The notes beneath the pieces were generated by a model that was given only the letters and a program-made list of their open reading frames with translations, did not search any database and was not told the origin of the DNA. A stretch of 64,000 bases of DNA from Gaeumannomyces sp. JS-464 (taxonomy: Eukaryota; Ascomycota; Sordariomycetes; Magnaporthales; Magnaporthaceae), in contig NGZR01000006.1 in the NCBI GenBank assembly GCA_002197995.1, forward strand, positions 620,001-684,000, in the 5' to 3' direction. Below are positions 9,233-62,302 of this stretch, in pieces. Within the stretch, counting starts at the first letter, position 1. The number at the start of each line of letters is the position of its first letter. The position numbers and the translations under genes were made by a program.

Positions 9233-11093
9233 ACGTAGTTTATTAACAAGTCGCGTATATTACCAAATCGCGCATTTTCCATCGCGATACGCGTTTCCCA
9301 CTTTCAATTTTAATTTTTTAACAACCACAAATAACATCGACATCGAAAAAAGCTAGGATTGTTTTTACCATACAGGCAATCCAATTTACTCGTGGATTAA
9401 ATTTGCGTTTGGCAGTTAAAATTTACGATATTTTTAAATCTACCATACGCGACCAACGCGCCGGCCGACCTGCTCGACGCGATAACATGCCCAAATTACG
9501 AAAATTAACGGAATCCGAAAAGAAAGCGCTTGTTAAATACATATTTAAACTGGACTTTCGCGCATTTCCTCCCCGGCTTTTTAGTATTAAAAATATGGCT
9601 AACCGACTGCTCGCCGAACGCGACGCGAGCACCGTTGGTAAGTGCTAAGTCGAAAAGTTCGTTAAACGCCGCGCAAAGCTCGGCACGCGCTAAATTCGAA
9701 AGTACGATTACCAAAAAGCCAAATGCGAAAATCCCAAGCTCGTATTTGCGTGGTTTAACTTTATACGGAACATTATAACCAAATATAGCATTTTGGATAA
9801 CGACATTTACAATTTCGACGAAACCGGCTTTTTTATAAGCATAATCGCCGTTATTATAGTTATTATAACGTCGAAAGGCCGTAATAAAGCAAAGCTGGTT
9901 TAATTTAGCAATCGGAAATGGGCTATAATTATTTAAAAGGTTAACTGTTGCGGTTAAACAATTTTTCTTTTTATTATTATTAAAAAGCAATACCATTTGG
10001 CCAATTGGTATTCGGAAACCGACTTTTCACGCAACTGGGTTATCGTAATAAGCGTTAACGGGTGAATTACGAACGAGCTCGGCTTGAAATGGATTCGGCA
10101 TTTCGATAAACACATTGCGTCGCGCGCAAAAAGCCCTTATCGTTTGTTAATGCTAAACGGCTACGAAAGCCACCATTTAACGGATTTCGAGCTTTACTGC
10201 CAAAAATATAACATCGTTACGCTTTGCATGCTTTCGCATTCGTTTTACTTCCTTTAGCCGCTTAACGTTAAATGTTTTAACCCGTTAAAAAAAGCGTACG
10301 GTCGACAAATCGAAAACTTAATAAAATCGCACGTTAACCACGTAACTAAGGTCGAGTTCTTTTCGGCGTTTAAAGCGGCATTTTTGGACTTTATAACCGA
10401 GAAAAACATTTAAAAAGGTTTCCGAAAGGCTGGCTTTGCTCCTTTTAATCCGGATTTAGTTTTGGAAAAGCTGGATGTAAGGCTACGAATTTTAACTCCC
10501 CCGAAGGAGCTTTTAAGCGACGCCGAACTTTGGACCTCCAAAACGCCTTAAACAGCTAGGGACGTAACTTCGCAATCCGAACACATTAAAACTCGGATTT
10601 CCAATTACCGGAGCAGCTTTCCGACACCCATATTAGCGATTGTAAACCAGCTAACGAAAAGGGCTAGGGCAATTATGCATCGGGTTAACCTTTTGGAAAA
10701 AAAGTGCTTTAAGCTACGAAAGGCGAACGAGGCACTAAGCAAACGCCGGAGGGCTAAAAAAACACGTGTTAAGCTAGGAAGGTTATTTATTATAAACGAG
10801 GTACGAAATGTTTTAAACCAGCAAAAGCTAAATGGATAGCTATAACAAGAAATACGCGATTATAGGGGTTAAAAAAGGAGGGCGACGATAACTCGTCGGC
10901 GATGTGGCATTTGCGGCAAAACCGGACATAATGCGCGCATTTATTAGGAAAAAGTAAAAATGTTTAATATATATAGTTCCGAATAGTTTAAATGGATTTT
11001 TAGCGTTATTAGGTTAGCATGCGCATCGATGGACTGGAGGTTGGGTGTGGGTGCGCGACTCGGTAATATGCGCGACTTACTGATGGACTACGT
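9233..11093 (+). mobile_element. pogo/Fot1-like DNA transposon P-A (1861 bp), TA target duplication
   Basis: Flanked by TA at 9231-9232 and 11094-11095. Left end ACGTAGTTTATTAACAAGTC and right end ATGGACTACGT are imperfect inverted repeats; the internal tandem units are of the TCGCG class. It encodes on the plus strand the best-preserved pogo-type transposase remnant of the window (see next entry). It sits between the minus-strand gypsy leader of G2 and a plus-strand gypsy integrase, two pieces that do not belong next to each other, so a rearrangement breakpoint coincides with this element. Confidence 0.85.
9330..10960 (+). pseudogene. pogo/Fot1-family transposase remnant of P-A (HTH-CENPB, DDE, C-terminal zinc knuckle)
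   Basis: The transposase would bind the ends and cut and paste the element at TA. Seen in order: N-terminal Psq/CENPB-like helix-turn-helix (LRLAVKIYDIFKSTIRDQ, KLRKLTESEKKALVKYIF), the first catalytic block YNFDETGF (about 9810-9833), a second block reading LMLNGYESHH (about 10148-10180; family norm is D-G-H), PLNVKCFNPLKKAYG and FSAFKAAFLDFITEKNI (about 10258-10412), and at the C-terminus a zinc knuckle RCGICGKTGHNARIY (about 10900-10944). Stops (for example about 9646 and 10255), Asp to Asn and His to Tyr in DGH, and final Cys to Tyr in the knuckle are transition changes and make it inactive. The C-terminal knuckle is intact as a pattern in several copies, so it was part of the ancestral protein. 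Confidence 0.8.
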
Positions 11094-11095
11094 TA

Positions 11096-12120
11096 AGCTT
11101 ATTAAATATGCTTTATTTTTACCATATAAAAAAAGCAGCGACGTTGTAAAACTAGCGTATGTTTTTATTAAACATGTAATTAAGAAATACGGCACGCCGA
11201 ACCGTTTAATTACAAATAAAAATAAGCTATTTATAAGCAAGTTTTAAAAAAAGCTTACGAATAAGCTAAAAGTAAAACACTTTTTATTTATAACTTACCA
11301 TTTTTAAACAAATAGATAAACGAAACGAACGAATTAAATTATAAAGTAATATTTACGTTATTACGTTAATTATAAATAAAACAATTAGGTATAACTATTC
11401 CTTATAGCTTAATTCGCTTATAACAATTTAATTTATAAAAGTATACAAATTATACCGTTTTATACGAATTACGGGTTTACGCTTATAACGTATAAAAGAT
11501 TTAAAGTAAAAAAACATGCTGTAATAGCGGAAATATAAATAACGAAGTTTATTAAATTATATAAACATTTCCAAATAAAGCTAAAAAAAAAAAAAAACTA
11601 TAACACCGCATAACTATTTAAGCAAATAAAAAAAAATCGAAAAACCGACTTTTAAAAAAGGAAATAGCGTTTATTTTTTTTAACGCAATATTAAAACAAA
11701 ACGACCAAACGATAAGTTAAACTATAAAAAATTAAGCCTTTTTAAAATGTTAAAAAAAAGTTTTAAATATACATTATAAATTCCGATTACCACCGATTAT
11801 AAAATCCTACCCGGTTTTTTATATTTCTTTATTTAAACCAGCGTTACTAAGCTTTAAAAGCGACGAGTTAATAAAAGTTAACGCAAAATAAAAGTACGAA
11901 ATCGAAAAAATTTTAAACTATAAGTTAAAAAATAAGCTTAAAAAGTACTTAATTAAATGAATAAAGTACGGCTACGAAAAAAACACGTGGGAAAAAGTAA
12001 CGAACTTTAAGCATTATTAAAAAGTTTTAAAAAAAATATTAACAAAAGCATTTGCAAAAAAGTTAATAAAAGAAAAAAGCTTTAAAAAAAAGTTTAACAT
12101 CGTTAAACTTTTTTTTAAAC
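11096..12120 (+). pseudogene. Ty3/gypsy integrase and chromodomain remnant (G3)
   Basis: Plus-strand translation gives the integrase core segment VKLAYVFIKHVIKKYGTP then NRLITNKNKLFISKF (about 11140-11245), where the second catalytic Asp of the usual SDRD is Asn. About 650 bp further on is a chromodomain: YEIEKILNYKLKNK, KKYLIK, IKYGYEKNTWEKVTNF (about 11890-12015). Integrase followed by a C-terminal chromodomain is typical of chromoviruses, which target heterochromatin. The remainder of this plus-strand element (gag, RT) is missing to the left, where P-A begins. Many stops; not functional. Confidence 0.75.
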
Positions 12121-13679: not shown

Positions 13680-15515
13680 ACGTGGTTTACAAGCGAATCG
13701 CGCATTTTCCAATGCGACACGCGTTTCCCACTTCCAACCTTAATTTCTTAATAACCACAAATGAAATCGACATCGAAAAAAGCTAAAATTGTTTTCGCTA
13801 TGCAAGCAATCCAATTTAATCGGGGATTAAGTTTGCGTTCGGCGGTTAAAATTTACAATATTCCTAAATCCATATTGCGCGACCGACGCGCCGGCCGACC
13901 TGTTCGACGCGATAACATGCCCAAATTACGGAAATTAACGGAATCCGAAAAGGAGGCGCTTATTAAATACATATTTAAGCTGGATTCGCGAGCATTCCCT
14001 CCCCGGCCTTTTAGTGTTAAAAATATAGCTAACCGACTGCTCGCTAAAGACGACGCGAGCGTCGTCGGTAAAAACTAGGTCGCGACTTCGTTAAACGCCG
14101 CGCGTAAGCGGCACGCGCTAAATTCGAAAATACGATACCAAAAGGCTAAATGCGAAAATCCCAAACTTGTTTTTGCGTGTTCGACTTTATACGGAACATT
14201 AGCCAAATATAGCATTTTAAATAACGATATTTTAACTTTAACAAAACCGGCTTTTTTATAGGCATAATCGTTACCGTTATAGTTATTATAATATCGGAAA
14301 ACCGTAATAAAAACAAAACTGGTTTAGTTTAGCAACCGGGAATAGGTTATAATTATTTAAAAGGTTAATTGTTGCGGTTAAACGATTTTTTTTTTTATTA
14401 TCGTTAAAAGGCAATACTATTTAGCTAATTAGTATTTAAAAACCAACCTTTTACGCGATTAGGTTATTTTAACGAATTCCAACGGGTGGATTACGAACGA
14501 GCTCGGTTTAAAATGGATTTGGCATTTCGATAAATACATTGCAATTCGTAAAAAAAGGTCCTATCGTTTATTAGTGCTAAACGGGCATAAAAGCCACCAT
14601 TTAACGGATTTTAAACTTTATTACTAAAAATATAACATTATTACGCTTTGCATACTTTCGCATTCGTTTTATTTCTTTTAACCGCTTAACGTTAAATGTT
14701 TTAACCCGCTAAAAAAGCGTACGGTTAACAAATCGAAAATTTAATAAAGTTATACGTTAACCACGTAATTAAGGTCAAGTTCGTTTCGGCGTTTAAAACG
14801 GCATTTTTTAACTTTATAACCGAAAAAAACATTCGAAAAGGTTTCCGAAAAGTTAGCTTTGCTCCTTTTAATCCGGGTTCGGTTTTAAAAAAGCTGGATG
14901 TAAAGCTACGAACTTTAACTCCCCCGAGGGAGCCCCTAAACGACGCCGAACTTTAAACCTCCAAAACGCCGCGGATAGCTAGGAAAGCAACTTCGCAATT
15001 CGAACATATTAAAACTCGGATTTCCAATTACCGGAGCAGCTTTCCGTCACTTATGCTAGCGGCTGTAAACCAATTTGCGAAAAGGACGAGTTCGATTATG
15101 CATTAAATAGCCCTTTTTAAAGCCGAAATTGCTTCGCTACGCAAGGCGAATAAGGCATTAAGCAAACGCCGGAAGGCTAAAAAAAACACGTGTTTAATAA
15201 AAAGGGTTACATATTATCGAAAAAATACGTAATATCCTAAACCAAAAAAGCTGGATGGGTAGTTACAATAAAAAATGCGCGATTATAAAGGTTAATAAAA
15301 AAAAGCGATAACAACTCGTCGGCGATATGGCATTTGCGGTAAAACCGGACCTAATACGCGCATTTATTAGGAAAAAGTAAAAATGTCCGATGTATATAAT
15401 TCCGAGTAGTTTAAATGGATTTTTGGCGTTATTGGGTTGGTATGCGCGTCGATTAACCGGAAGTCGGTGTGGGTGCGCGATTCGCTTATGTGCGCGATTC
15501 GCTTGTAAACCACGT
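13680..15515 (+). mobile_element. pogo/Fot1-like DNA transposon P-B (1836 bp), nested in R1
   Basis: TA duplicated at 13678-13679 and 15516-15517; ends ACGTGGTTTACAAGCG and CGCTTGTAAACCACGT are perfect inverses. The right end has two 17-bp units (GCGAATCGCGCACATAA type read inward), the left end only one, so one unit has been lost on the left. The transposase frame opens at 13761 with MKSTSKKAKIVFAMQAIQ and stays open to 14078; this is the only copy with an intact N-terminus. Confidence 0.87.
13761..15390 (+). pseudogene. pogo/Fot1-family transposase remnant of P-B
   Basis: Starts MKSTSKKAKI with an ATG followed by the helix-turn-helix SLRSAVKIYNIPKSILRDR and the CENPB-like block KLRKLTESEKEALIKYIF..SRAFPPRPFSVKNIANRLLA. 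It is open for 105 codons to a TAG at 14076-14078 that replaces a conserved Trp (KNWVANF in P-I). After that, frame slips and stops interrupt the DDE region; the second catalytic block near 14570-14600 reads LLVLNGHKSHH, and the C-terminal TCGKT-like knuckle region is near 15325-15375. The intact N-terminus fixes the family start codon, about 80 bp inside the terminal repeat. Confidence 0.75.
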
Positions 15516-16579
15516 TACGCTTTTTTTAATAAATTAAAACATTTAACGTTAAACGGTTAAAAAAAGTAAAACGAATGCGAAAGTATATAAAACGTAATAA
15601 TGTTATATTTTTAATAAAAACCTTAAAATCCACCGAATAATAGCTTTTATAACGGTTTAATATTAACAAGTAATAAAACTTTATAAAACAAATTGCAATA
15701 TGTTTATCGAAATGTTAAATTTATTTTAAACCGAGCTTGTTTGTAATTTATTTGTTAAAACTCGTTAAAATAATTTAATTGCGTAAAAAGTCGGTTTTTT
15801 AAATACCAATTAACTAAATAGTTATTATTTTTAACGATAATAAAAAAATAAATCGCTTAACCGTAATAATTAACTTTTTAAATAATTTTAACCCATTTTT
15901 TATTACTAAATTAAACCAGATTTATTTTATTATAACCTTTCGATATTATAATAATTATAACAGCGGCGATTATACTTTTAAAAAAGCCGGTTTCGTTAAA
16001 ATTGTAAATATCGTTATTTTAAATGCTATATTTGCTTATAATATTTCGTATAAAGTTAAATTACGTAAAAACAAGTTGGAAATTGTCGCATTTGGTTTTT
16101 TAATAATCGTATTTTTAAATTTAACGCGTATTAAGCTTTGCGTAACGCTTAACGAAGTTCGCGATTTAGTTTTTACTAATAACGTTTGCGTCGCATTTAG
16201 TAAGCAATTAGTTAGTTATATGTTTAATATTAAAAAGCCGGGAAGGAAATACGCGGAAATCCAGCTTAAATATGTATTTAATAAACGTTTTTTTAAATTT
16301 CGTTAATTTTCGTAATTTGGGCATATTATTACGTTAAGCAGGTTAACCACGCTTTCGACGCGTTAAAATTAATTTCGCAACCGAATAAATTTTTGCAGCT
16401 TTCCGTACGTTTAGTTTTAAATTGGATTGTAAAATTTAAAAAGTAAGCATTACCCGGCTTTCGTCGTTTTTTATTAATATTGTTATAAATAAAAAAATTG
16501 CTTGCGAAAAAAAAGCATCGCGTAGTTGCGTGTTTTAACCCAGTTGTTTATATAGCCCACTTGTTTATAAACCACGTTA

Positions 16580-17451
16580 TCGAAATGCTAAATTTATTTT
16601 AAACCGAGCTGGTTCGTAATTTATTTATTAACGCTTATTACGATAACTTAATTGCGTAAAAGTCGGTTTTCGAATATTAATTAGCTAAATAGTACTGCTT
16701 TTTAACGATAATAAAAAAAGGATCGTTTAGCCGTAATAATTAATCTTTTAAATATTTATAATTTATTTCCAATTGCTAAATTAAACTAGCTTTGCTTTAT
16801 TACAACCTTTTAATATTGTAAAAATTATAACGAACGTAATTATGCTTATAAAAAAGCCAGTTTCGTTAAAATTGTAAATATCGTTATTTTAAATGCTATA
16901 TTTAGCTATAATATTCCGTATAAAGTCGATTTACGTAAAACAAGTTTAAAATTTTCGCATTTAGCTTTTTAATAATTGTACTTTCGAATTTAACGCGTGC
17001 TAAGCTCCGGGCGGCGTTTAACGAACCTCGCGACTTAGTTAGTTTTAATAATGCCCGCGTTACGTTTAGCGAGCAATTATTAGCTATATTTTTAAAACTA
17101 AAAAATCGGGAAAGGAATGCGTAAAAGTCTAGCTTAAATATAATTTAATAAGCGACTTCTTTTCAAATTCCGTTAATTTCCGTAATTTGGGTATATTATC
17201 GTATTAAACAATTCGACCGCGGCGTTAATCTTTTAATGTAAAATAAAAAAAACATTGTAAAGCTTTATTGCAACGCGTAAACTAATTTTCGAATCATTTT
17301 TAATTGCTAACAAAGCAAGGATTACTTTGGACTTTTTGGATTGCGAATTTATCGCGCAAGTGTTAAAATGTTTAGGTGGAAAATTAACGCGTCGCGTTAT
17401 AACCAAAATTAATCGACTTACTGGTTTAACCAACTCGCTAGTAAACCACGT
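16580..17451 (-). mobile_element. pogo-like transposon fragment R2 (reverse, 5' half)
   Basis: Homologous to the 5' half of the other reverse copies, starting abruptly where R1 is inserted (16578) and ending at AGTAAACCACGT, TA (17452-17453). The terminal units are of the TCGGTTAAAC/TCGATTA class, matching P-H and MITEs M1 and M3. The N-terminal transposase region, including the HTH, can be followed on the minus strand from about 17200 leftwards, broken by stops. Confidence 0.65.
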
Positions 17452-17844: not shown

Positions 17845-18946
17845 TAAATTCCCAACCCTGGCTTTCCATGCTCTCCATTCATGGCCGTCCCCCATGGCCT
17901 CCTCGCCATGGCCTGCCTTTTATGCTGGCCAACCCGTACTTTATTTGGGGTTAGCACCGCGCCCGCCGCGTGCCAGCAGTGGTTGGGTGGTGTGGCAGAC
18001 AAAACAAACACTTGAAGAAACTTGCAGAAAAAGATACAAGTTACAAGTAGAGCCCCGAAGCCTCATTTTTAAGGAGCTGGAGCTTTTTGTCCCGCCGCCA
18101 ACTTTGGGTTTCTCCTCGCGCCAACCAGCACAAACCACTGCCGCCCAGGATTTTACACCACCCTTGCCCCCGTCCTTCATGATAACGTCGGGGACTCTGC
18201 TAGACATGTAAGGAATGCAAGGGATTTTGAACCATGGCGCAGCATATTTCAACAAGGCGAGGGTTTCGCCACAGAAAATGCTCCCTGTCCACCACCACCA
18301 CCTGCACTTTAGCGCCAACACGTCGTTGTGAGATTGCATTCGGCGAACTCAAATTAGGTCCATTGGTCGGGTGTTCGTGCCGTGTGGTCGCTTCAAGGGG
18401 GCGGCCCTTGGAGGCGACGCCGCGATGCTTTTATACCAGACGTTGGCTGGACAAGCCACTGAGGCCTAAAGGGTGCCGGGCCACACTGCGGGGCATTTCG
18501 TGGGGCGAAACTCGAAGTACCTTTTCCTCTACCATCCCAATTCGTGCGTAGCGCGCCAAGAAGATACCGAGCAGTGTGCCTTACTTTGGTCTGCAACCTC
18601 TATATTGATTTGCAGGTCGAGATGTATATTCAAGCACGACAACGATCCGTGTGCTAGGGCCATCGGTCACGGCTCGAACTTTGACCAAGTAGTTACATGA
18701 TGCTGGTTGTTGTGCAGCCGGCACGCCGATACGATATCGAACTGATAAATAGAACCGCCCCCTCTCCTCCTCAACTGTCCCGCACCACTATGTCAGATAC
18801 TCCGCGTCCCCGAGCGCCCGCATGGTCTCGGTGAGTGGGCTAACGGTAGCCTGTATCGGACCAACTGGCCCTCAAATGTTAGTTTGCGCCACGTGAGGGT
18901 CAAAACAGATGGCGTGCACAGTACCGAAGGACGGTCGATATGCGTC
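17845..18946. other. GC-rich island flank without a supportable gene
   Basis: Overlapping open frames exist on both strands (for example minus 17941-18339 and plus 18234-18551) but none shows a recognisable domain, good start context with supporting introns, or codon pattern. It contains the 3' flank of the cysteine-rich protein gene. Confidence 0.5.
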
Positions 18947-19267
18947 TTAGCCCTCGTAGTTTTCAAGCTTGGCGAGGATCTCGCTGTCCTCGAGCGGGGG
19001 CAGGCCCTGGGCGGCCCTGGCGGCCTCGAGCTCCCTTTTGGCGCAGCCGACGGGGCAACGACAGTCGGAGATCACGCCGAATGCGCGGCAGCACTGAGCG
19101 AAGGTGCTGAGCCGCTCGCTCATGGTGTTGGCGGCACAGTCGTTGCCCCTCATGATCCCGCCGGAGGTCCGGCAGCAACCCTCGGTAGCGAACTCATTTC
19201 CGCCGCACTTGCACGCCGCGGCGGCGCTGACGAAGGCGGCGAGGGTGAAGAGAACGTTGAACTTCAT
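18947..19267 (-). CDS. small secreted cysteine-rich protein (candidate effector)
   Basis: Single-exon frame of 106 codons, start ATG at 19267, stop TAA at 18947-18949. Residues 1-18 form a clear signal peptide (short basic start, LFTLAAFVSAAAA core), with cleavage expected before Cys19. The mature chain has ten cysteines, at 19, 21, 31, 32, 44, 59, 60, 69, 71 and 75, including two CC pairs and the cluster CRCPVGC; five disulfides are possible. The last 30 residues are cysteine-free and acidic. Small size, export and even cysteine number fit fungal apoplastic effectors or other secreted defence or competition proteins, but I recognise no named family and cannot state a function. A TATAAA 146 bp upstream suits the start. 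An overlapping antisense open frame is best taken as its shadow. It sits about 1.1 kb from the AT-rich repeat block. Confidence 0.75.
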   Translation of the reverse strand: MKFNVLFTLAAFVSAAAACKCGGNEFATEGCCRTSGGIMRGNDCAANTMSERLSTFAQCCRAFGVISDCRCPVGCAKRELEAARAAQGLPPLEDSEILAKLENYEG

Positions 19268-19412
19268 GATTCCGGTTGAGAGGAGTTGCTGAAGTTGAAG
19301 GGCTGTTTTGAAGGGGTTGAGTGGGCTGTTCCAGGCTTGGGTAGAGGAGAGAGCTGAAAGCCGGATGAAGACGGAGTTCTTCTTTGCGTCTTTGTCGGGG
19401 GTCGCCCTCGGC

Positions 19413-19418
19413 TTTATA
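19413..19418 (-). promoter_or_regulatory. TATA box of the cysteine-rich secreted protein gene
   Basis: TATAAA on the minus strand in the context AAGTATAAAGCCG, 146 bp before the ATG at 19267, giving a predicted 5' leader of roughly 110 bp. No other TATA-like element occurs in the interval. Confidence 0.5.
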
Positions 19419-19424
19419 CTTTTT

Positions 19425-20814
19425 CCTCCCCTTAGACAACTGGTTAACGCTCTGTGTGCCCTTTCACCTGGTCCAAGTCTGGGAGCACCTTATCCCCTCG
19501 CCTTCCTCGGCATTCCCAACCATGCCAGACATCTCTTCTTGCGCGAAGTGAGTTGGACCAGGCGGTTAGGCGCCGGCCTTGTGCCAGCATGATGCAATGC
19601 CACGCCTGCACGGATGCGGCGTATCGCAAGTGGATGGCAGCCCAGCCTTCCCTCCCTCAAGTTCCTCGAGTGAGCGTCTCCAAACATCCGAGCCAGTGCG
19701 TTTTCCAAGCTAAAGACCGGTCTGGCTTTGTGGAGTTATCAAGACTGACGCATATAAGCTGGGTGACACCTTCCGAACTCGTCCAAACTTGGCAACACGT
19801 CAGAAGTGTGGGGATGACGTGCATTGGATAAAGCCATCGCTGACGTTCCTGTTGGTTGAGCAGCTTTATCCGTACCTATCAGAAGGGAGAACGGGAACTA
19901 TTTGAATAAGTGGATTGAAGAGCTTTGAGGATCTCTTCTTAATCTTCTAACAGTCGGTAGAGTTTTTTAACAGTACTGACCCTGGGTAGTTGGGTCGTTC
20001 CCACCGTCCAAGATGGAAAGTATAATGGCAACGTTCTTATAGTAGGTACTTTGATCCTTGCAATGCATGACATGATGAAATATCCTACCTTCTCATCCAA
20101 CGACATTCCTTGTACAAAACGGTTTTTAAAAAAAAACCTTTTATTCGGACTGATTGTTCCATTCTATGCAGCTCCCAACGGGTGGACAGACAACGAAATT
20201 GCGGTTAAATGGCTAAAAGCAACGTACCATGGTAGGTCGTAAGATGAATTCCGGGCCAAATTTCTGCATGATCCCGTAGCCTTTCCGGCGGACCCAACGC
20301 TTGCCGCCAGTCGGGTCTCGGCGGTAAACCCAAATGGGGCGCAACCGAGCTCCGCGGAAGCTCTCCGCTTCGTAAGGACGTAAGGACCCGACGTAAGCGA
20401 GCCCACCTATCCACTCAACTCAACCAACCGACCATGGGTCTGCCGCCAATAATACCTTCTCGGGGAAATAAACATAAGGCTTGGTCTGCCGTGTCCCGGG
20501 GGTTTCGGCCGACCGTCTTGTCCACTTTTCTGCCGAGCATCGAGCAGGCAACAGAATGAACCGGGAGCGCGCCCACATCCTACTCTCTACTCCCTCCCAC
20601 AACAATATCGCCACCACCTGAAATCCTGCACCACGCTTCTGACCCTGTTTCCCCTCTCGGGCATTACAATTCTACCACGCTTGGCTTGCTTCCCAACATC
20701 CTCAGGCCACACATATGAGCCGCCTACGTATCTACCACCGGGCCTGATTAGGTACCTGTCTTGGGGGCTAAGCTTGACCGGCTTCCTGGTTTGGGCCTTC
20801 CCATCTTCCTAGCT
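19425..20814. other. intergenic region between divergent genes, nothing supportable
   Basis: Contains the shared upstream region of the cysteine-rich gene (minus) and the GT90 gene (plus). Several short open frames overlap on both strands without domain or splice support. The middle (about 19900-20150) is more AT-rich. Confidence 0.5.
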
Positions 20815-22430
20815 ATGCCGCCCCATCCTCCGGCTCCTGAGCGCGAGGAGACTTCCCATTGTAGCCGTGGTCGTAGCCTTGATAGCCTACAACCATTTCT
20901 CCGATGGCGCCCTGACAGACACCCTCTTTCGGTCCCCGGCGATCCCGGAGGATCCCCCAGGGGCGTGGGACGACCACCCCGTCGTGCTGCTGCACCAAAA
21001 GGCACGGGCAGAGTTCCATGCCTTCCTCGCCCGACAGTCGAAAACCCCCGATGATGCTGAAAGTGAATACAGACGGCGCTATCGCAGGGAGCCGCCTCCC
21101 GGCTTCCGCCAGTGGGTCGATTATGCCCTCGCCAACGAGTCGCCAGTCATTGACGATTTCGACATTATCGCTGAAAGTGTCCACCCCTTTTTAAAATACG
21201 GTGCGGAACAAATCGACCAAAACGTCCGCCGCGCCATGCAGCAAAGCACGACAGGCCACAGCTCGATATGCGAGTTCTCCGGCGGGAGGTTCGGGCGCGG
21301 ATGTCGAAATTGGGGGGAACCCCTAACCAGGCTGCTGGGCGACGCGCGCAGGCTCATGCCGGACCTCGAGCTGTACATCAACTTTCTCGACGAGCCGTCG
21401 GTACTGTTAGGCACAACAGGCGCGGGGCAGCAGCACGACGGTGGCGCAGAGTCCCGGGCACAGCGCATGTGGACGGATCTTTCCCACCAGTCGATAGCCA
21501 CGGCCGTGGCCGAAGCCTGCCGGGCACGAGGGGAGGTTCCGAAGGCGACAGCCGCGCTGGACGATCAGCTCGGCTCCAACGGCCCTCTAGGAAGTCGATT
21601 CGTCTCCGACGCGAAGGCACAAAAAGATCTCTGCCAAAATCCCCAATACGCTTCCCAGCACGGCTTCGTTATGTCCCCGCCGACCTTTCGCAGGCTTTCG
21701 GCCGAGGTCCCGATGCTTTCCCGTGCTGCCCCTTACCCCTTTTCCGACGTCCTCTTCCCCGCCACTCACTACTCTCTCAAATCAAGCCTGTACAGCTCCT
21801 GGTCCGACCGATCCTGGGGCGCAAAGAAGAACGCTGTGTATTGGACCGGGTCGTCGACGGGAGGGCAGTGGTCCCCAGACACGTGGCGCAAGGGCCACCG
21901 GCAGCGGCTCGTCGCCCTCGCCACCGGCAAGACCGACACCGCTGCCGCCGTCGACCAGTCGCGCTCGACGTCGCCTTCACCCGTATCGTGGGCTGCGCCC
22001 GGCCTCGGTCTGCGACGACATGTCTCGCTTCTTCTCCTCGGGCTCCAACACCGCCTTTGACCCGGAATCCCGCCCGCTGCGCTACCGGTTCGCCCTCGAC
22101 GTGGACGGCAACAGCTTCAGCGGGCGCTTTTACCGGCTCCTGGCGTCCCGCAGCGTCCCACTCAAAATAACAATATTCCGCGAGTGGCACGACGAACGCC
22201 TCCGGCCCTGGGTACACTATGTGCCCGTCAGCGTCGGCATGGAGGAGCTGCCGGAGCTGGTGCGGGTTTTGACCTCGACGGCGACGGGCCAGAGAATCTC
22301 CAAAAGCATAGCTGAAGCGGGGAGGGAGTGGTACCAGCGGGCGATGGCGCCTAAACATCAGGGCATCTACATGTATAGGCTCATGCTGGAGATGGCCAGG
22401 CTACAGGATAGGTCGCGGGAGGCTGGGTAA
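20815..22430 (+). pseudogene. GT90 / CAP10-like glycosyltransferase with three frame breaks
   Basis: GT90 (CAP10) enzymes are Golgi type II membrane glycosyltransferases, in fungi mostly xylosyl-transfer to glycans. Seen: an N-terminal anchor (RRLPIVAVVVALIAY, from about 20846), then AWDDHPVVLLHQKARAEFHA, RRRYRREPPPGFRQWVDYA and SPVIDDFDII (20970-21170), NFLDEPSVL, HGFVMSPP, FSDVLFPATHYSLKS, and the signature YWTGSSTGGQWSPDTW-R-GHRQR (21840-21905), DVAFTRIVGC (about 21970), FALDVDGNSFSGRFYRLLAS (about 22090-22147) and WVHYVPVSVGMEELPEL, ending at TAA 22428-22430. The frame changes three times: a C-run at 20818-20824 (the ATG at 20815 is in another frame than the anchor), and near 21960 and 22000, where about 15-25 residues are also missing. 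No GT..AG pair explains the last two. Coding quality is otherwise high, so decay is recent or the assembly is wrong. Confidence 0.8.
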
Positions 22431-43365: not shown

Positions 43366-43457
<92 letters not shown>

Positions 43458-47484: not shown

Positions 47485-47486
47485 GA

Positions 47487-47525
<39 letters not shown>

Positions 47526-47552
47526 GTTATTATTATTATTATTATTATATTA

Positions 47553-47638
<86 letters not shown>
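47485..47638 (+). repeat. (TTA)n tail of SINE S2
   Basis: About 150 bp of TTA/ATT units with one interruption (about 47547-47552), forming the 3' end of the SINE. Confidence 0.9.
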
Positions 47639-47643
<5 letters not shown>

Positions 47644-48676: not shown

Positions 48677-50522
48677 ACGTGGTTTACAAGTAAGTGGAAT
48701 ATATAAGCGAGTGGAACACTTACATTTAACTTTCGGTTAATTAATACGCATACCAACCTAATAAAATTTATTTAAAATATTTAAAATTGTATATTAAACG
48801 TTTTTACTTTTTTTTAACAAATGCGCGCATTATGTCCGGTTTTGCCGCAAATGCTACATCGCTAACGAGTTATCGTTGCCCTTTTTTTTTAACCTTTATA
48901 ATCGCGCATTTTTTACTATAGCTGCCCATTTAGCTCTTTTGGTTTAAAACATTTCGTATTTTTTAACAATATGTAACCCTTTTTATTAAACACGTGTTTT
49001 TTGGCCTTTAACGTTTGCTTAGTATTTTATTCGCTTTTCGTAATTTAAAGCACTTTTCTTTTAAAAGGTTAACCCGATATATAATTGCTTTAGCCCTTTT
49101 CGTTAATTGGTTTATAACCGATAATATAAGTAACGGAAAACTGCTCCGGTAATTGGAAATCCGAATTTTAATATGTTCGAACTGCGAAGTTGCGTTTTTA
49201 ACTGTTTAAAACGTTTTAAAAGTTTAAAGTTCGGCGTTGTTTAAAGGCTTTTTCGAAGGAGTTAAAATTCGTAACCTTATATTTAGCTTTTTTAAAACCG
49301 AATCCAAATTAAAAAAAGCTAAGCCAGCCTTTCGGAAACCTTTTTAAATATTTTTTTCGGTTATAAAGTTAAAAAATGCCGTTTTAAACGCCGAAAAAAA
49401 CTTAACTTTAATTACGTGGTTAACGTGTAACCTAATTAAATTTTCAATTTATCGACCGTACGCTTTTTTTAACAAGTTAAAACATTTAACGTTAAGCGGT
49501 TAAAAAAAGTAAAACGAATACGAAGGTATGCAAAGCGTAATAATGTTATATTTTTAGCAATAAAGCTCGAAATCCGTTAAATAGTAGCTTTCGTAACCGT
49601 CCAGTATTAACAAACGATAGTTGCTTTTTATGCGCGATGTAATGTGCTTATCGAAATGCTAAATCCATTTTAAGCCGAGCTCGTTCGTAATTTACTTTTT
49701 GCATTCGTTAAAATAACCTAATCGCGTAAAAAGTCGGTTTTTAAATACCAATTGGCCAAATGGTATTGCCTTTTAACGATAATAAAAAAAAGATCGCTTA
49801 ACCGCAATAATTAACCTTTTAAATAATTATAGCCCATTTTCGATTACTAAGCTGGATTAGCTTTGTTTTATTACGGCTTTCCAACGTTATAATAACTATA
49901 ACGGCGGCGATTATGCTTATAAAAAAGCTAGTTTCGTTAAAATTATAAATATCGTTATTTAAAATGCTATATTTAACTATAGTATTTCGTATAAAGTCGA
50001 ATTAGGTAAAAACGAGCTTAGGATTTTCGCATTTGGCCTTTTGGTAATCGTACTTTCGAATTTAACGCGTGCCGAGCTTTGCACGGCGTTTGACGAAGTT
50101 CGCGACCTAGTTTTTACCGACGGCGCCCGCGTTGCGTTTAGCGAGCAATTAGTTAACCATATTTTTAATGCCAAAAGGCCGGGGAGGGAATGCTTACGAA
50201 TTTAGCTTAAATATATATTTAATAAACGCTTTTTTTCGGATTCCGTTAATTTTCGTAATTTAGGCATATTGTTGCATCGAGCAAATTAGCCGTGTTTTCG
50301 ACGCGATAAGGTGGTAAAAGCGACGGAGTAAATTTTAGCAGCGGCCCGAAAATTTAGTTTTAAATCGAATTGCAAAGTTTAAAAAGCGAGGATTAATTTG
50401 CCTTTTTTATTTTGTTTTGCTATATTTGTTAGTGGAAAAGTTAGTGGTAAAAGGAAACGCGTCGTATTATCGCGGTCGCGTGTTTTACTCGCTTATATGT
50501 TCCACTTACTTGTAAAGCACGT
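48677..50522 (-). mobile_element. pogo-like transposon P-G (1846 bp, reverse)
   Basis: TA at 48675-48676 and 50523-50524; ends ACGTGGTTTACAAGTAAG and CTTACTTGTAAAGCACGT. Units GTAAGTGGAATATATAA and GCGAGTGGAACACTTAC (GTGGAACA class, shared with MITE M2). Minus strand: knuckle inverted at about 48832-48880, PLKKAYG-like about 49440, NFDETS/F region about 49925-49950, ALKIWLTNCSLNATRAP and SRPFGIKNMVNxLLAKRNA near 50150-50200. Stops throughout. Confidence 0.83.
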
Positions 50523-52330: not shown

Positions 52331-54190
52331 ACGTGGTTTACAAGCGAGTCGCGTACACAAACGAATCGCGCATTTTCCAATGCGACACGCGTTTTCCACT
52401 TTTAACTTTAATTTCTTAATAACCATAAATAAAATCTACATTAAAAAAAGCTAGGATTGTTTTCGCCATGCAAGTAATCCAATTTAATTAGGGATTAAAT
52501 TTGCGTTCGGCGGTTAAAATTTACGATATTTTTAAATCCACATTACGCGACCGACGCGCCGGCCGATTTGCTCGACGCGATAGCATGCCCAAATTACGGA
52601 AATTAACGGAATCCGAAAAAAAAGCGCTTATTAAATACATATTTAAACTGGATTCGCGAGCATTCCCTTCCCGGCTTTTTAATATTAAAAATATGGCTAA
52701 CCGATTGCTCGCTAAACGCAACGCGGGCGTCGTCGGCAAAAACTGGGTCGCGAACTTCGTTAAACGCCGTACAAAGCTCGGCACGCGCTGGATTCGAAAG
52801 TACGACTACCAAAAAGCCAAATGCGAAAATCCCAAACTCGTTTTTGCGTGGTTCGACCTTATACGGAACATTATAGCCAAATATAGCATTTTAAATAACG
52901 ATATTTACAATTTCGACGAAACCGGTTTCCTTATAAGCATAATCGCCGCCGTTATAGTTATTATAACATTAAAAGGCCGTAATAAAGCAAAGCTAATCCA
53001 GCTTAATAACCGGGAATGGGTTATAATTATTTAAAACGTTAACTATTACGGTTAAGCGATCCCCCTTTTATTATCGTTAAAAGGCAGTACCATTTGGCCA
53101 ATTAGTATTTAAAAACCGACTTTTCACGCGATTAAGTTATTTTAACGAGTTTTAACGGGTGGATTACGAACGAGCTCGGCTTAAAATGAATTCGGCATTT
53201 CGATAAACACATTACAATTCGCAGGAAAAGGTCCCATCGTTTATTAGTGCTAAACGGGTATAAAAGCTACCATTCGACGGATTTTAAGCTTTATTGCTAA
53301 AAACATAACATTATTACGCTTTGCATGCCTTTACATTCGTTTTACTTTTTTTAACCGCTTAACGTTAAATGTTTTAGCCCGTTGAAAAAAGCGTACGGTT
53401 AACAAATCGAAAACCTAATAAAGTTACACGTTAACCACGTAATTAAAGTTAAATTCCTTTCGGCGTTTAAAGCGGCATTTTTTAACTTTATAACCGAAAA
53501 AAACATTCGAAAAGGTTTTCGAAGGGTTAACCTTGCTCCTTTTAATCCGGGTTCGGTTTTGGAAAAGCTGGATGTAAAGCTACGAATTTTAACTCCCCCG
53601 AGGGAACTTTTAAACGACGCCGAACCTTAAACCTTTAAAACGCCGCGGATAACTAAAAAAGCAACTTTGCAATCCGAATATATTAAAACTCGGATTTCCA
53701 ATTACCGAAGCAGCTTTTCGTTATTTATGCTAACGGCTGTAAACCAGCTTGCGAAAAGGACGAGTTCGATTATGCATTAAATGGCCCTTTTTAAAGCCGA
53801 AGTTGCTTCGCTACGTAAGGCGAACGAGGCATTAAGCAAACGCCGGAAGGCTAAAAAAACACGTGTCCGATAAAAAGGGTTACATATTGTTAAAAAAATA
53901 CGTAATGTTTTAAACCAGGAGGAGCTAAATAGGTAGTTATAGCAAAAAATGCGCGATTATAAGGGTTAATAAAAAAAAGCGATAACAACTCGTCGGCGAT
54001 ATAGCACTTGCGGTAAAACCGGACATAATGCGCGCATTTGTTAAAAAAAAGTAAAAATGTCCGATATATACAGTTCCGAGTAGTTTAAATGGATTTTTAG
54101 CGTTATTAGGTTAGTATGCGCGTTAATTAATTGGAAATCGGGTGTGGGTGCGCGATTCGCTTGTATGCGCGATTCGCTTGTAAACCACGT
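52331..54190 (+). mobile_element. pogo/Fot1-like DNA transposon P-I (1860 bp), nested in P-H
   Basis: TA at 52329-52330 and 54191-54192; ends ACGTGGTTTACAAGCGAG and ATTCGCTTGTAAACCACGT. Two units at each end, TCGCG class: GCGAGTCGCGTACACAA and ACGAATCGCGCATTTTC on the left, tandem TGCGCGATTCGCTTGTA on the right. Opposite orientation to its host P-H. Contains the longest open transposase segment in the window. Confidence 0.88.
52400..54045 (+). pseudogene. pogo/Fot1-family transposase remnant of P-I
   Basis: Open without stop from 52501 to 53034 (177 codons): LRSAVKIYDIFKSTLRDRRAG, KLRKLTESEKKALIKYIF, NWVANFVKRRTKLGTRWIRKYDYQKA, KLVFAWFDLIRNIIAKYSI, IYNFDETGFLISI (first catalytic Asp at 52915-52917). 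Upstream to the expected ATG (about 52408) the codon is ATA/ATAAA-type, and a stop separates it. Downstream, LLVLNGYKSYHS (about 53245-53285) has Asn for the second catalytic Asp, PLKKAYG is at about 53380, and the knuckle reads STCGKTGHNARIC with its first Cys as Tyr (about 53997-54040). Inactive, but good enough to reconstruct the family order HTH, CENPB, DDE, knuckle. Confidence 0.78.
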
Positions 54191-55539
54191 TATTCGGATT
54201 GCATAATTGCTTTTTTAATTATTTTAAACGTTTTAAAAGTTTAAAGTTTAGCGTTATTTAAAAGTTTTGTTAAAAGCGTTAAAATTCGTAACTTTACATT
54301 TAGCATTTTTAAAACCGAATTCGAATTAAAAAAAAAGCAAAACCAACTTTTCGAAAGCTTTTTTAAATGTTTTCCTCGGTTATAAAGTTAAAAAATGCTG
54401 TTTTAAACGCCGAAAAGAACTCGATTTTAATTACGTGGTTAACGTTTAACTTTATTAATATTTTCAATTTATTAACGTACGTTTTTTTAATAAATTAAAG
54501 CATTTAACGTTAAATAATTAAAAGAAATAAAACGAATGCGAAAGTATGCAAAACGTAACAATATTATATTTTTAGCAATAAAATTCGAAATTTATTAATT
54601 GGTAGCTTTTATAGCCGTTTATATTAAAAAACGATAAAAGCTTTTTATATGTGATATATATGTTTATTAAAATGCTAAATCCACTTTAAACCGAGCTCGT
54701 TCGTAATTTATTTATTAACGCTCGTTATAATTAATTACGTAAAAAGTCGGTTTTTAAATACTAATTAGCTAAATAATATTACTTTTAAACGATAATAAAA
54801 AAGGAATCGTTTAACCGTAATAATTAACTTTTTAAATAATTATAACCTATTCCCGATTGTTAAATTAAATTAGTTTTCCTTTATTAAAACCTTTTAATAT
54901 TATAATAATTATAATAAACCCGATTATGCTTATAAAAAAGCCGGTTTCGTCGAAATTATAAATGTCGTTATTTTAAATGCCATATTTAGTTATAATATTC
55001 CGTATAAAATCGAATTACGTAAAAATAAATTTGAAATTTTCACATTTAGCTTTTTTAATAATTATTTTTTTCGAATTTAACGCGTGTTAAGCTTTAAACG
55101 GCGTTTACCGAACTTCGCGACCTAGTTAATTTTAACGGTGCTCGCGTCGCGTTTAACGAGCAATCGGTTAGTTATTTTTTAACATTAAAAGGTTAAAAAA
55201 GGAATGCGCGAAAATTTAACTCGAATATATATTTAATAAGCAATTCCTTTTTAATTTCCGTTAATTTCCGTAATTTAAGTATATTATCGCATCGAACAAT
55301 TCGGCCGCGGCGTTAGTCGTTTAATGTAAAATAGGGAATATTATAAAGCTATGTTATATCGCGTAAACTAATTTTCGGATTATTTTTAATTGCTAGCAAG
55401 GTAAAAATCACTTTAAAGTTTTTAAATTGCAAATTTATCGCGCAAATGTTAAAAAGTTTAAATGGAAAGTTAACGCGTCGCGTCGCGATGAAAATTAATT
55501 AACTTATTAGTTTAACCAACTCGTTAATAAACCACGTTA

Positions 55540-58500
55540 TACCTTTTTAACGCTGGTAAGTACGGGTTAATTTTTAACTTTTTAAACATTTTTAAAGTTT
55601 ATAAAAACTTGTTTTAATGTAATTACGAACTTTAAAAATGCAATTATTTAAGTATATTATACGCACTTTTTTAGTTTAACGAAAAGCTTTACTTCGAGCA
55701 ATTTTTAAAATATTTATATATATATTGCTTATATTTTTCCACTATTTCGAAAAAAACCAAAATGTTATTTAAATACGCAAATGTAAAAATATCGAGGTAT
55801 TTGCGCAATAAGTGGTTAATTATTTTTTAAAACGTGGTTAATGCATTAGTAAAACCGAAAATTATTATTAAAAACTCGTAATATTTAAATCTTATTTTAA
55901 AAGCTGTTAACTTTTAGCTTTTTTTTAATTCGTAATAGGTTATAGGCTTTGCGTAAGTTTAAAACCGTAAAACACTAAGCCTTTTTAAGCTTATTTTTAA
56001 CTCGTTAATAAAAGGTAAAAAATATTAATTTTTAATAATAACCTTATTTAACGGGCGGTAATCGATGCATATTCGTTTCGTCCCGTTTTTTTTAATCCTT
56101 TATAAAATATATTTTATTAAGGAATTAAACGGTTTAATAAACCCTTTTTATAAGTTTTCCTTTAATTATTCCTTTAGCATTTTATATTACTAAGGGTTAA
56201 ATTAATACACTTTTTAATATTTAAATTATACTTTTAATTTAAACTTAATTTTAAAATTAAACGGTTTATTTGGGGAATATAATTGTTAAACTTTTCCTAA
56301 ATAACTTTTAATATTTAAAATATTTTTTCGTTACGTTTTTATTCGTATAACGAAATTCGCTTGTTTATTTAGGTTAACGTCGTTAAATAATTGCAAATTC
56401 GTTAATATCGATTACCGGGGTTAACTGTTTTACCCTACTATAGTTATAACTGCCTTTTATAACATCGCGTGTTTATTATTTAAGGTTTGTAATTGTTAAA
56501 GCTTTTTAATTACTAATAGCTTTTTTTATTAAATTAAACTAATAGTTTAATTTATTCGTAAGTTATGCTTTTTAAATTACAAAATGCTTAAAATTATATT
56601 TTCCTTTTTTATATTTATAATATTTAAAGCAACGTGGTTTATTAATAAATAAAACACATTACTAAGTGGAACATTTGCAAATGTATATAAAAACCGCCGG
56701 TGTATTTTGTTTAATTTAAAGTAAAATTTTTTAAAAATTTAAACTATAATACACAAATATATAGTTATTATAAACATAATTTTTCCGTATTTTTACTATT
56801 ATTTAATTTATGTTAATTTGCATATTATATATATATACACAGTATATTATACAATGTTACATTTAGTTTAAAAAAAGTAATAATAAAAATTTGGTAAAAT
56901 CATTTTTAAATAACTATATACTTATGTATTACTGTTTAAACTTGTAAAATTTTACTTTAAAATTAAACAAAGTGCACCGACGTTTTTTATATGCATTTGC
57001 GGGTGTTTCATTCGGTAATATGTTTTACTTATTAATGGACCACGTTAACTTAAATATTTTTTTAATAAAATTGAAATTTAAAATAATTAGTTTTTATATC
57101 GATTTTTCCGTTATTATTCGTAATTAGTTTCCTTTTTACAATATTTAAATTATACGGTTTTTTTTCCTTTATGTTTAAATGCTGTATTTTTTCGCAGCTT
57201 TTAACGAAAAATAGTTGCATTTAACCCCGTTATCGATTATAATTCGTAGTTTTCTTTTTTAATATTATAGCTTTATTACTATATGTTAATATTAATTGTT
57301 ATTTATTACGGTTAGGGTTTTTAACTATCGTTATAATTTATACCGTGCTTTTAATTCCGGTAAATTTCCTAGTTTTTTATTTCCAGTGCTTTTTTCGTAT
57401 TTGCGAGCATCCCGAACCGTATTAAGCTATCGGTTTAAACCCGTGCTTTTTTTTCTATATGCACTTTGCATTCCGGCTTTTTATAAAAGTGGTACGTTAA
57501 AAGTTTTAACACATATATTATAAAGTATAACGGCGAAAGTGCGAAGGTTTTACGAATTATTAATAGTTTATTAATTAAACTTTCCATTTCGGGAATTGGT
57601 AATTCCTTTTAAATGTTTAGCCGGCTTTTCATTTTTCCTTTTAAAAAAAGTCGCTTTTTAACTTAACCGTTAAATGCTATTAGCATTTGTTTTGTGGATT
57701 TTGCTTAAAAAAGCTCGACGTGTTTTACCGAGTTAACGCGTAAATCCGAATGGTTTATTAAATGCGTTTCGGCTTATTGTAAACCTTTTATTAACACGTT
57801 ATTATATGGTTTTCCGTAGTACGTAACGGTTTAATCGTTTTAAAACTAATCCAAAAACGAGCCGTCGTTATCGTACGTTAATTCCACGTGCATAATTCCG
57901 CTAATAGGTTTAAACTAGTTTTAAAACCATCGATTACTTTTTAACAATTTAAGCGAGGTATAAATTTTGCCGATATTAAACGCCGGGGTTAACTATTTAA
58001 ATTTTAAACTTTTTTCCTAATTTTTTATAAAATAAGTTTAACTTAATAATTTCTAATTAATTTATTATCGGTATTTAAAAACCTTTTTTTTATCGCTTTT
58101 ATTTTTTACCTAATAAGGTTTTATACTTTTCGCTTAAATTCGAATTGTTTTTTACGGTGTTTATTTTTTTAACTTCGAAAGCGATTTAAAAGGCAACGGT
58201 ATTTTTTTTTCAAATTTCGTAAGTTTAAAAATAACGCGTTATTCCCCTTATTATCGTATTCGAGTCGAATAGGGCCTTTGCTAAGCCTTTTGCGCATTAT
58301 AACCACCCTTTTTTAAAAATACCATTTCGATGCTTTTTTATCGAACTAATGCATTAAGCACAAATCGTTAAATTAATAGGTTTAATTAAACGTTACCCCG
58401 GAATATAAGTTGTCGTTATTTTTATCGTTTTTTTCAAGTTATTATTATTTAACGTTTATAGCGTTACAAGCAGTTCTTTTTAATATAGCCCGTTTGGCCA

Positions 58501-60150: not shown

Positions 60151-60351
60151 AACTTAAAACCCTTTTTATATTAAACACGTTTTAAGTTTCGAATTAGTTT
60201 TTAATGCTTTAATAGGAAGGATTACTTTGGATTTTTTCGGAAAGGAATTTATTACAAATGTGTTAAAATATTAAAATGGGAAGTTAACGTAGCGCGTTAC
60301 GTCGAAAAGTGTTTAATTCGCTTATATGTTTAACTCGTTTGTAAACCACGT
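60151..60351 (-). mobile_element. pogo-like terminal fragment P-J (reverse, 5' end only)
   Basis: Ends ACTCGTTTGTAAACCACGT then TA (60352-60353), with two tandem GTTTAACTCG/GTTTAATTCG units. The preceding 150 bp match the 5' leader of R2 (GGATTACTTTGGA, TTATCGCGCA-like, AATTAACGCG). The left boundary is approximate. Confidence 0.55.
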
Positions 60352-60409
60352 TATTAATAAAAATTTAAAGAAATTATTTTTATCATTTTTGTATAACTAA
60401 TTAAATATA

Positions 60410-62302
60410 ACGTAAATTATCACTTAGCGAGCCACATTACTTAGCGAGCCACATTACTTAACGAGTTACATTACTTAGCGAGCCACTTTTTTCGACCTTT
60501 TAACTTTTAACCTTTCCAACTTTAAAAAAAAAAGTGCATTTAATTTAATTTAATCGGAATTTAATAAACTATATACATTTTTTACCTTTTCGCAGGTTTT
60601 TGCATTATAGCCGGTTTTGCGGCAAATGCTACAAAACCGCGGGCTTGTTTTGCATCGCTTCGACGAACTTTGTTCCACACATTCGTCGCGTCCTTTTTGT
60701 TTAACCACGCTTTTATTTACCAAAAGCTAGCTGGCTTTTTCACTGGTAAAAGGTCCCGAATTTTGCAATCGGGTTTTTTAGCCTTTTAGCGCTTAAAAAA
60801 AGCATCGTTAACGTTTCGAAATGCTTTAACCTCCCTTATTAAAAGTGTTAAGCGGTAATTAACAACTATGATAACTTTTGCTAATTGGTTAACAAAACTT
60901 AAAATAAGTGTTAAAAAGCTTTTTTATTATTTAACCACCCGACTTTTAATTAAAGTCGCTTGCGAAAAGGCTTTGGTAGCAGTTTAAAGCGTTTAAAAAA
61001 CTTAAAGTTAACGCGGGCCGTTAAAAGGCCTAAAAGGTATTAAAGTTTGCAATTAAACATCCAGCTTGGAAATAACAGCTTCCGGGTTAAATAGGACTAA
61101 GCTAACCTTTTAAAAGCAGCTTTCGATATTTTGTTTCGTAAAAACCTTATCGAAAGCGGCTTTAAACGCAAAGAAAAAGTCGTTTTTAATAATATGCGTA
61201 ATGTTAACCCGGATAAAAGTCGAAATTTAAGCACTGTACGCTTTTTTTAAAAGGCTAAAAACACCGACGTTAAAAGGCTAAGTTAAATGCGAAAAATAGG
61301 GAGGTAAACAAAACGTAATAATATTATTAGCTGTATAATATTCGTCGAATTCGGCGTTAATATAGCTTTCGTAGCCGTCCAGCATTAACATTCGCCACGG
61401 ACTTTATTAGCGAACTTTTATTTACTAATTAAAGTGTTTAAACCATTTAAAACCCGTTTTATAATCGGTTTAACCATTTTGGGTCGTTTTAACAACCTAA
61501 TTGTTCGGAATGTACCTGTTAATATACCAAACGGCGAAATGGAATTAGCCTTTTACGTAAAAAAAAACGGAAGCACCACATGGCTATTTGCCGCAACGCA
61601 GCAAATTGCCGTTACCTATTTTTAATTTTTAAGCTAAACGGCTTTTGGTTTGCCGGCTTTTTCGAAACGCGTAACTACCATCCCGGGCTGGATTATGCCT
61701 ATTATAAACCTGTTTCGTTAAAATTGTAAAAGTCGCAATTTTAAATGCTGTATTTCGCGTATATATTAACGACCAAACGGAACCACGCGCTTAACACGTT
61801 AGGATTTTTTTACAAAGCCTTTTGGTAGTTGTAAGCGCGAGAAAAACGCGTGCAAAGTTCTGGTCGTCGTGTAATAAAACGGTCGGTCCAGCACTTCCCA
61901 ACACGCTGCGTACCGCGTTTAGCTAATAAAAAATCAGCCATATTTTGCACATCGCACCTCCGCGGCGAAAATCCTTTGGAATTTAACTGCAGGATATACT
62001 AAACAATTACTTCCTTTTTAGCTAAAGTTAACGTCCGGTTATTAATAGTCTTATCGGCTTTAGTAGCTTTTCCAGCCATTTTATGCTGCAACGTTAAACG
62101 TGGCACATGGAACTGCATTGCAAGCTTTTAAATGCTTAATTTTAATATTATTCGCTTCGCTTCAATTGCGAAAATAATTCGGCATTCGACAGCTAAAACC
62201 GCTATTATTATTGCGCGAAAAAACACGTTGTGAAATTGGGGTGGTAAGTGCCGAGAAAAAATGGCTCGCTAGTAATGTAACTCGCTAAGTAATAATTTAC
62301 GT
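60410..62302 (-). mobile_element. divergent pogo-like transposon P-K (1893 bp) with a four-unit terminal array
   Basis: TA at 60408-60409 and 62303-62304; ends ACGTAAATTATCACTTAGCG and CGCTAAGTAATAATTTACGT. The left end has four 17-bp units, GCGAGCCACATTACTTA repeated (third unit ACGAGTTACATTACTTA), 60428-60492; the right end has two. Minus-strand transposase remnant: knuckle CSICRKTGYNA (about 60604-60640), second catalytic block RMLMLDGYESYINAEF (about 61365-61400, catalytic Asp kept, His as Tyr), and upstream FDE-like and HTH regions to about 62100. Divergent in sequence from the ACGTGG copies but the same architecture. Confidence 0.78.
60428..60492 (+). repeat. four tandem 17-bp terminal units of P-K
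   Basis: AGCGAGCCACATTACTT three times and AACGAGTTACATTACTT once, in exact 17-bp phase, next to the terminal ACGTAAATTATCACTT. Expected to be transposase binding sites by analogy with tandem sites in other TIR elements. Confidence 0.8.

Follow-up and report, generated by a model that had tools for sequence, protein, structure and literature searches.

Two half-sites in the terminal units, and two helix-turn-helix domains, of pogo-like transposons of Gaeumannomyces sp. JS-464

A stretch of 64,000 nucleotides (nt) from the fungus Gaeumannomyces sp. JS-464 (positions 620001-684000 of contig NGZR01000006.1, working label G000:C31; hereafter the window) was analysed together with the rest of the genome (53.0 Mb, 34 contigs) for pogo-like transposons and their ends. 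The terminal inverted repeats (TIRs) of these elements are built of 17-bp units, and two separate parts of each unit were found to vary together with two separate helix-turn-helix (HTH) domains of the transposase. The periodicity, agreement between units, covariation, reassortment, divergence boundary and tree conflict observed in this study are very probably best explained by two HTH domains reading two half-sites, in a family that diversified combinatorially. The initial annotation had proposed one variable recognition module that evolves in step with the transposase DNA-binding domain. A match between unit class and DNA-binding domain was indeed found, in 47 elements and in two genome-wide comparisons of coordinates, but it involves two reassorting half-sites with two HTH domains and not a single module. 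With that change, the proposed co-evolution survived the refutation tests set in the initial annotation.

The 5' ends open with 8 bp, ACGTGGTT in 30 of the 47 elements and variants in the others; directly after this opening, 17-bp units occupy element bases 9-25 and 26-42. Both units are in register in 44 of the 47 5' ends, and one, three or four units occur at some ends. Genome-wide, TAACGTRRTYYA was found 687 + 682 times compared with 17 + 25 times for the reversed control. With unit bases numbered 1-17, the variable positions are bases 3-5 (the tail: CAA, TAA, TTA, TCA, CCA, CTA or CCC), base 6 (G or C, transitions aside) and the post-core bases 12-15, which form eight classes (CGCG, GGCG, GGGC, GGAA, GGAT, GCCA, GGTT and CGACA) assigned from the peptide of the first HTH domain (HTH1). 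Exact 17-bp spacing was also seen in runs of four and three CGCG units at C12:6077030-6077093 and C29:2179839-2179885, respectively.

All seven 17-mers quoted in the initial annotation have exact matches, at eight places in total, and every match lies within an end starting TA-ACGT. Their period was right but their register was about 5 bases off, since all except that of the distant element P-K start at unit base 6; this left the bases that precede the first CGAG out of the repeat, and an 8-bp opening with units at 9-25 and 26-42 fits better. The two tandem units claimed for each end hold in the 44 5' ends given above, but the 5' end of element P-B has a single unit and one end of P-K has four. 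Likewise, the CGAG-like core is present in most copies, departing beyond transitions in few, but it is not constant: ATGTG- or TTTAT-like sequence stands in its place in three GCCA-class elements (L050:503-2352, L037:442-2297 and L036:645), and its phase differs in P-K. The same three elements have PKT or PKN, not PKL, in the linker between the HTH domains; core and linker may also co-vary.

Agreement between units was scored as purine or pyrimidine at seven unit bases (4-6 and 12-15), a coding immune to the transitions of repeat-induced point mutation (RIP), with P-K excluded. The two units of the same 5' end agreed at 0.974 (n = 44) compared with 0.646 for units of other elements, and the 5' and 3' ends of the same element at 0.979 (n = 24) compared with 0.670; none of 10,000 permutations reached the within-element value in either case. 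The claimed agreement within ends and between ends is therefore confirmed, and exceeds that of random pairs. Pairs of distinct elements sharing HTH1 class and tail still agree at 0.945 (units) and 0.963 (ends), and family resemblance accounts for much of the within-element agreement.

Covariation was examined by comparing the 5' TIR with the translated DNA-binding region in the 47 elements (37, and 10 added later), with codons numbered on element P-I. The per-column scan covered 46 of them, P-K being omitted there as well as from the trees, and the unit register of L042_8357 was moved by one base for the scan and the full-length alignment. The best predictor of unit base 4 was residue 114 in the recognition helix of the second HTH domain (HTH2): where base 4 is A, the residue is Asn (22 elements) or Ser (one), and where it is C/T, Lys (12) or Arg (eight). 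Three rows were unreadable at this residue and not counted, namely L036_645 and L040_2121 (frame non-homologous there) and the element at window position 13680 (codon gap). P-K, with C/T and Arg, fits as well, so that the rule holds in 44/44 readable elements of the 47.

The inner half of the unit behaves similarly with respect to HTH1. For base 12 the best predictor was residue 46 of the HTH1 (psq) helix, which is Asp in 12 of 12 elements with C/T and in none of 34 with A/G, where Arg (25), Lys (three), Trp (two) and Cys, His, Gln or a stop (one each) were found. Residue 45 of the same helix best predicted base 14, other columns of the HTH1 region bases 13 and 15, and residues 61 and 58 of the linker base 6. 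Read inwards from the end of the element, the unit is colinear with the order HTH2, linker, HTH1. The helix names are our assumption, taken from Pfam matches and general HTH architecture rather than from a structure.

Many transposon copies in the AT-rich parts of the window have a RIP-type signature, measured in seven elements (TA/AT 1.16-1.46; (CA+TG)/(AC+GT) 0.58-0.75), and the classes might be nothing but C-to-T and G-to-A states of one ancestral TIR and transposase. Such an artefact is extremely improbable and is contradicted by the transversion-coded results: the tests rest on purine/pyrimidine coding and transversion distances, and the Asn codons AAC/AAT differ by transversions from AAG/AAA/AGG, as does base 4 A from C/T.

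The matches were also checked across the genome by pairing peptide-type matches with TIR patterns by offset, from coordinates only. These joins covered the best 150 of 456-596 candidates per peptide search and 100 of 111 (HTH2) or 100 of 128 (HTH1) pattern places. Among the HTH2 matches listed, CAA ends went with the N type in 32/32 cases and TTA ends with the E type in 7/7; four of these 39 are also in the 47-element set, and two, C2:31685 and C34:811063, appear to be copies of a single segment. Several pairs of places on C2 and C34 have identical scores, which suggests a duplicated segment or an assembly overlap. In the HTH1 join, which 105 of the 150 peptide places entered, 53 of the 54 matches listed agreed (CGCG 34/34, GCCA 19/20), seven of the 54 being also in the 47-element set. 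The other 45 places were checked separately, and none lies beside a listed end, the end lists being without some second units of the same end.

The lone exception is the L054 element, which runs from C23:2915862 to about C23:2917718 and has a GGCG-type 5' end and HTH1 but, about 1857 bp along, a 3' end of GCCA type, the 3' end being placed from coordinates only. It is a probable natural recombinant with mismatched ends, perhaps caught before correction of its 3' end; the GCCA-type end could be a chance neighbour.

For comparison of trees, elements were divided into a cassette, the 5' block of TIR, leader and HTH1 up to about nt 245, and a chassis of linker, HTH2 and DDE. Covariation could arise from shared ancestry only, each module class being an old lineage in which TIR and transposase were co-inherited without functional matching, and two observations are in keeping with this: same-class, same-tail pairs already agree at 0.945-0.963, and on the cassette tree the HTH1 classes can be accounted for with the fewest possible changes. 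The two halves reassort, however. Base 4 A and C/T are both present in seven of the eight HTH1 classes (both tail types in six of eight, if only elements with readable residue 114 are counted), and within classes residue 114 matches base 4 in every readable element (stratified exact p 8.4e-8, a value that treats copies as independent, which they are not). Shared ancestry alone thus fails to explain the match in the outer half. The tail changes at least 10 times on the cassette tree, divergence between classes is far greater in the cassette than in the chassis, and the TIR has tail and post-core bases in alternation, so that a single crossover would be unable to swap tails together with HTH2. 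As a full account shared ancestry is improbable, and for the match between HTH2 and tail it is contradicted.

Full-length alignments were available for 28 of the 47 elements, the others being too short or excluded by hand. Transversion divergence between HTH1 classes was 0.18-0.31 over nt 43-245, leader included, and 0.02-0.05 over nt 245-390, followed by 0.01-0.12 onward to nt 1760. In the HTH2 helix window (nt 390-440) divergence tracked the tail and not the class, at 0.015-0.031 for the same tail and 0.072-0.073 for different tails. At the other end of the element, classes differed by 0.06 in the 3' inner flank and by 0.18-0.22 in the 3' TIR; the 3' TIR value within the same class and tail was 0.10, in an alignment blurred by missing units.

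The chassis tree and the approximately unbiased (AU) tests used 23 rows over nt 250-395 and 435-1760, that is, a 27-row set minus the long-branch L042_8357, L036_3855, L036_6072 and L041_156, with L036_645 and L040_2121 kept out of both sets. HTH1 class changed 10 times on the chassis compared with five on the cassette. Single chassis clades were rejected for CGCG, GGCG, GCCA, GGGC and CGACA (p 5.7e-4 or less), and GGAA remained one clade. A 46-row chassis tree gave 25 class changes, a figure inflated by weak resolution (three starred branches). The boundary at nt 245 and the conflicting trees indicate that the 5' block of TIR, leader and HTH1 was exchanged between elements.

The divergent segment, HTH1, might instead have changed rapidly by point mutation under selection, with the TIR following. 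This alternative is unlikely, although less so than shared ancestry only. The non-coding leader (nt 43-80) diverges between classes as much as HTH1 (0.28-0.31), divergence drops sharply at nt 245, the chassis and cassette trees conflict, and L054 apparently combines GGCG and GCCA ends, subject to the limit on its 3' end given above.

Several results weigh against the reading of two half-sites by two HTH domains in a combinatorially diversified family. Only five independent tail switches fall on supported branches (all five agree, sign test p 0.0625), and the short chassis tree gives just one. The eight HTH1 classes need only seven changes on the cassette tree, the smallest number possible, which makes the match between HTH1 and the inner half less independent of ancestry than that between HTH2 and the tail. 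HTH1 class is more clustered on the chassis than at random (shuffled mean 14.5, none of 200 as low), so that exchange was repeated but not free, and same-class, different-tail pairs exceed different-class pairs in chassis divergence (0.05-0.18 beyond nt 500), so that the chassis, too, is heterogeneous. As the inner half correlates with many HTH1 columns, residues 46 and 45 are the likeliest readers rather than proven ones. Base 6 varies in only six of the 46 elements and its association with the linker has exceptions, while base 3 (C or T) is RIP-prone and was not resolved. AlphaFold models of the L059 DNA-binding region were poor, with mean predicted local distance difference test scores (44 alone, 55 with eight sequences) too low for residues to be placed on DNA, and sequence searches of solved structures gave no relative, only a synthetic tetratricopeptide repeat protein at E 0.95.

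Two HTH domains reading two half-sites would nevertheless account for the data as follows. The elements would form one pogo/Fot1-type family in a fungal genome subject to RIP-type mutation, and a single transposase molecule would most likely bind each 17-bp TIR unit through both of its HTH domains. HTH2 (Tc5/CENPB type) would read the outer half at bases 3-5, the inter-domain linker would touch the centre at base 6 and the CGAG core perhaps as well, and the inner half at bases 12-15 would be read by HTH1 (psq type). In this code, A at base 4 would go with Asn and C/T with Lys/Arg; at base 12, C/T would go with Asp and A/G mostly with Arg/Lys. Direct contacts between these residues and bases, and this orientation of the protein on the DNA, are what we infer from sequence covariation. 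Recombination would move the 5' block onto a shared chassis, and HTH2 specificity would have been switched repeatedly. The units at both ends match each other in the copies read, and the 3' TIR may be corrected by conversion from the 5' TIR.

Each combination of half-sites may then be mobilised separately, making the sub-families independent, with cross-mobilisation perhaps prevented as the initial annotation suggested. It is moderately probable that mutually independent specificities arise in this combinatorial way, through a cassette swap, a separate HTH2 switch and the re-matching of end units. We hold with similar, moderate confidence the joint view that pairs of half-site and domain are interchangeable parts, that one genome carries many self-recognising sub-families, and that a psq/CENPB code can be read from them. 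Two MITE-like elements (resembling miniature inverted-repeat transposable elements; L040:3119-3559 and L041:8141-8581) have CAA-TAA tails and CGACA post-core bases, close to L051 (TAA, CGACA), and none of the 47 elements combines CAA and CGACA with a transposase.

Assignment of the family as pogo/Fot1-like was based on a partial DDE_1 match in one copy together with HTH_psq and HTH_Tnp_Tc5 in others. The L051 open frame matches PF03184 (DDE_1) over 15-71 of 177 (6.9e-08), with neither HTH domain listed at E 0.01. In Pfam, HTH_psq was above cut-off in L059, L055 and P0001, and HTH_Tnp_Tc5 in P-I, P0001 and P-K, the Tc5 HTH being below cut-off in L059 and L055. P0001, a protein of Gaeumannomyces tritici, was the one protein returned by the homolog search, with 68% identity over 89% of the 150-residue query region. 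Its residues C..ER and LRR would point to a TTA/TCA tail and A/G-GCG-like post-core bases in its own TIR. Among the 47 elements having a DNA-binding region a 3' end was assigned in 25, with lengths of 1833-1893 bp in 23 of them and of 2043 and 2129 bp in the other two. TA precedes 46 of the 47 5' ends (CA in one) and stands on both sides of 10/10 two-ended window elements, in both cases partly by construction, as TA or TA-ACGT was sought or preferred in picking ends.

In the window, the first element (9233-11093, + strand) has both ends, TTA-TCA tails, CGCG post-core bases and the HTH2 helix C..EK. P-B (13680-15515, +; CAA-TAA/CGCG) also has both ends, with one unit at the 5' and two at the 3' end. 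Three minus-strand 5' ends with a DNA-binding region are without an assigned 3' end, at 15983-16577 (TAA/GGGC), 16847-17451 (CTA-CCA/GGTT class) and 54931-55537 (TTA-CTA/GGTT class). Both ends are present in P-D (29296-31157, +; CCA/GGGC, HTH2 helix N..AR, linker ALNF), in the element at 48677-50522 (-; CAA-TAA/GGAA) and in P-I (52331-54190, +; CAA/CGCG, HTH2 helix N..AN). P-E (43650-48343, +; CCA/GGAT) is split by P-F (44750-46608, -; CAA-TAA/GGCG), a two-ended element nested inside it; just outside P-E, at 43221-43530, lies a tandem array with mostly 8-bp spacing and 25 overlapping copies listed.

Ends without an assigned partner were found at 22883-22924 (P1, +; ATA-TTA/GGAT, with an inner flank like that of 3' ends), 57004-57045 (-; TTA/AAAA-GAAA) and 60310-60351 (-; CAA-TAA/TAAA). 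Two MITE-like elements share CGGT-CGAT post-core bases, one of 417 bp at 23621-24037 (tails TTA, CTA, CCA, CTA) and M3, of 607 bp, at 37918-38524 (CCA; two units on the left, one on the right). P-K (60410-62302, -) has both ends and is a distant relative whose DNA-binding region is about 40% identical to that of P-I; four units stand at one of its ends and two imperfect ones at the opposite end, and another end similar to its own lies at 62410. GC-rich blocks without RIP signature occupy 18500-22500 and 32000-43000 (0.577 and 0.573), the latter containing a FAD_binding_3 match.

In type I restriction, the two half-site readers of HsdS recombine independently by swapping target-recognition domains and so produce new specificities. 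That system is bacterial, and differs in that the transposon's own end units must change along with the protein. The CENP-B DNA-binding domain consists of two HTH and the CENP-B box is 17 bp long, but CENP-B has one fixed specificity, unlike this family. In Sleeping Beauty the repeats lie far apart within long TIRs.

Published accounts already contain some of the elements of this picture. CENP-B is described as pogo-derived, and Tigger-like elements have been noted to carry a CENP-B box in their 5' TIR (PMC7325037). In Sleeping Beauty, PAI reads the 3' part of the site; RED, which reads the 5' part, also restricts its use by related subfamilies (PMC7827188). Judged by covariation, the present family would resemble the Sleeping Beauty inverted repeat/direct repeat arrangement in that two HTH subdomains share out the parts of a repeated site with the same polarity; the Sleeping Beauty domain is paired-like, and a natural series of reassorted half-sites is not described in the portion of that account available (PMC7827188). 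TremA is 1850 bp long with 49-bp TIRs containing a 17-bp internal direct repeat, its transposase is HTH(psq)-CENPB-DDE, and the repeats were suggested as HTH and CENPB sites; TIR direct repeats were given for the fungal Tc1/mariner elements Trem, Aft1 and Tan1, with Pot2 and Fot1 in the same figure (PMC2836289). Both the 17-bp TIR direct repeats of fungal elements of this type and the proposal that they serve as HTH/CENPB sites are already published (PMC2836289). For Sclerotinia Tc1-Mariner elements (not TcMar-Pogo), ACGT ends were noted as cleavage sites and TIR direct repeats as transposase binding sites (PMC4188875). The accessible portions of these accounts make no mention of half-sites per HTH, reassortment or cassette exchange (PMC2836289; PMC4188875). 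A two-half-site code, its reassortment and TIR-HTH1 cassette exchange in pogo elements were not found in the literature searched, which is weak evidence of novelty as subscription journals were mostly outside it.

These results address the puzzle of how a transposase could change specificity without losing its own ends, given that the end sites must follow the protein. One genome with reassorted half-sites and HTH domains makes single-residue predictions (residue 114 with base 4, residue 46 with base 12) directly testable, and offers a natural data set for reading the DNA-recognition code of pogo-type DNA-binding domains. The findings are relevant to the way in which related transposons gain independence from one another and from MITEs, and to pogo-derived host proteins such as CENP-B.

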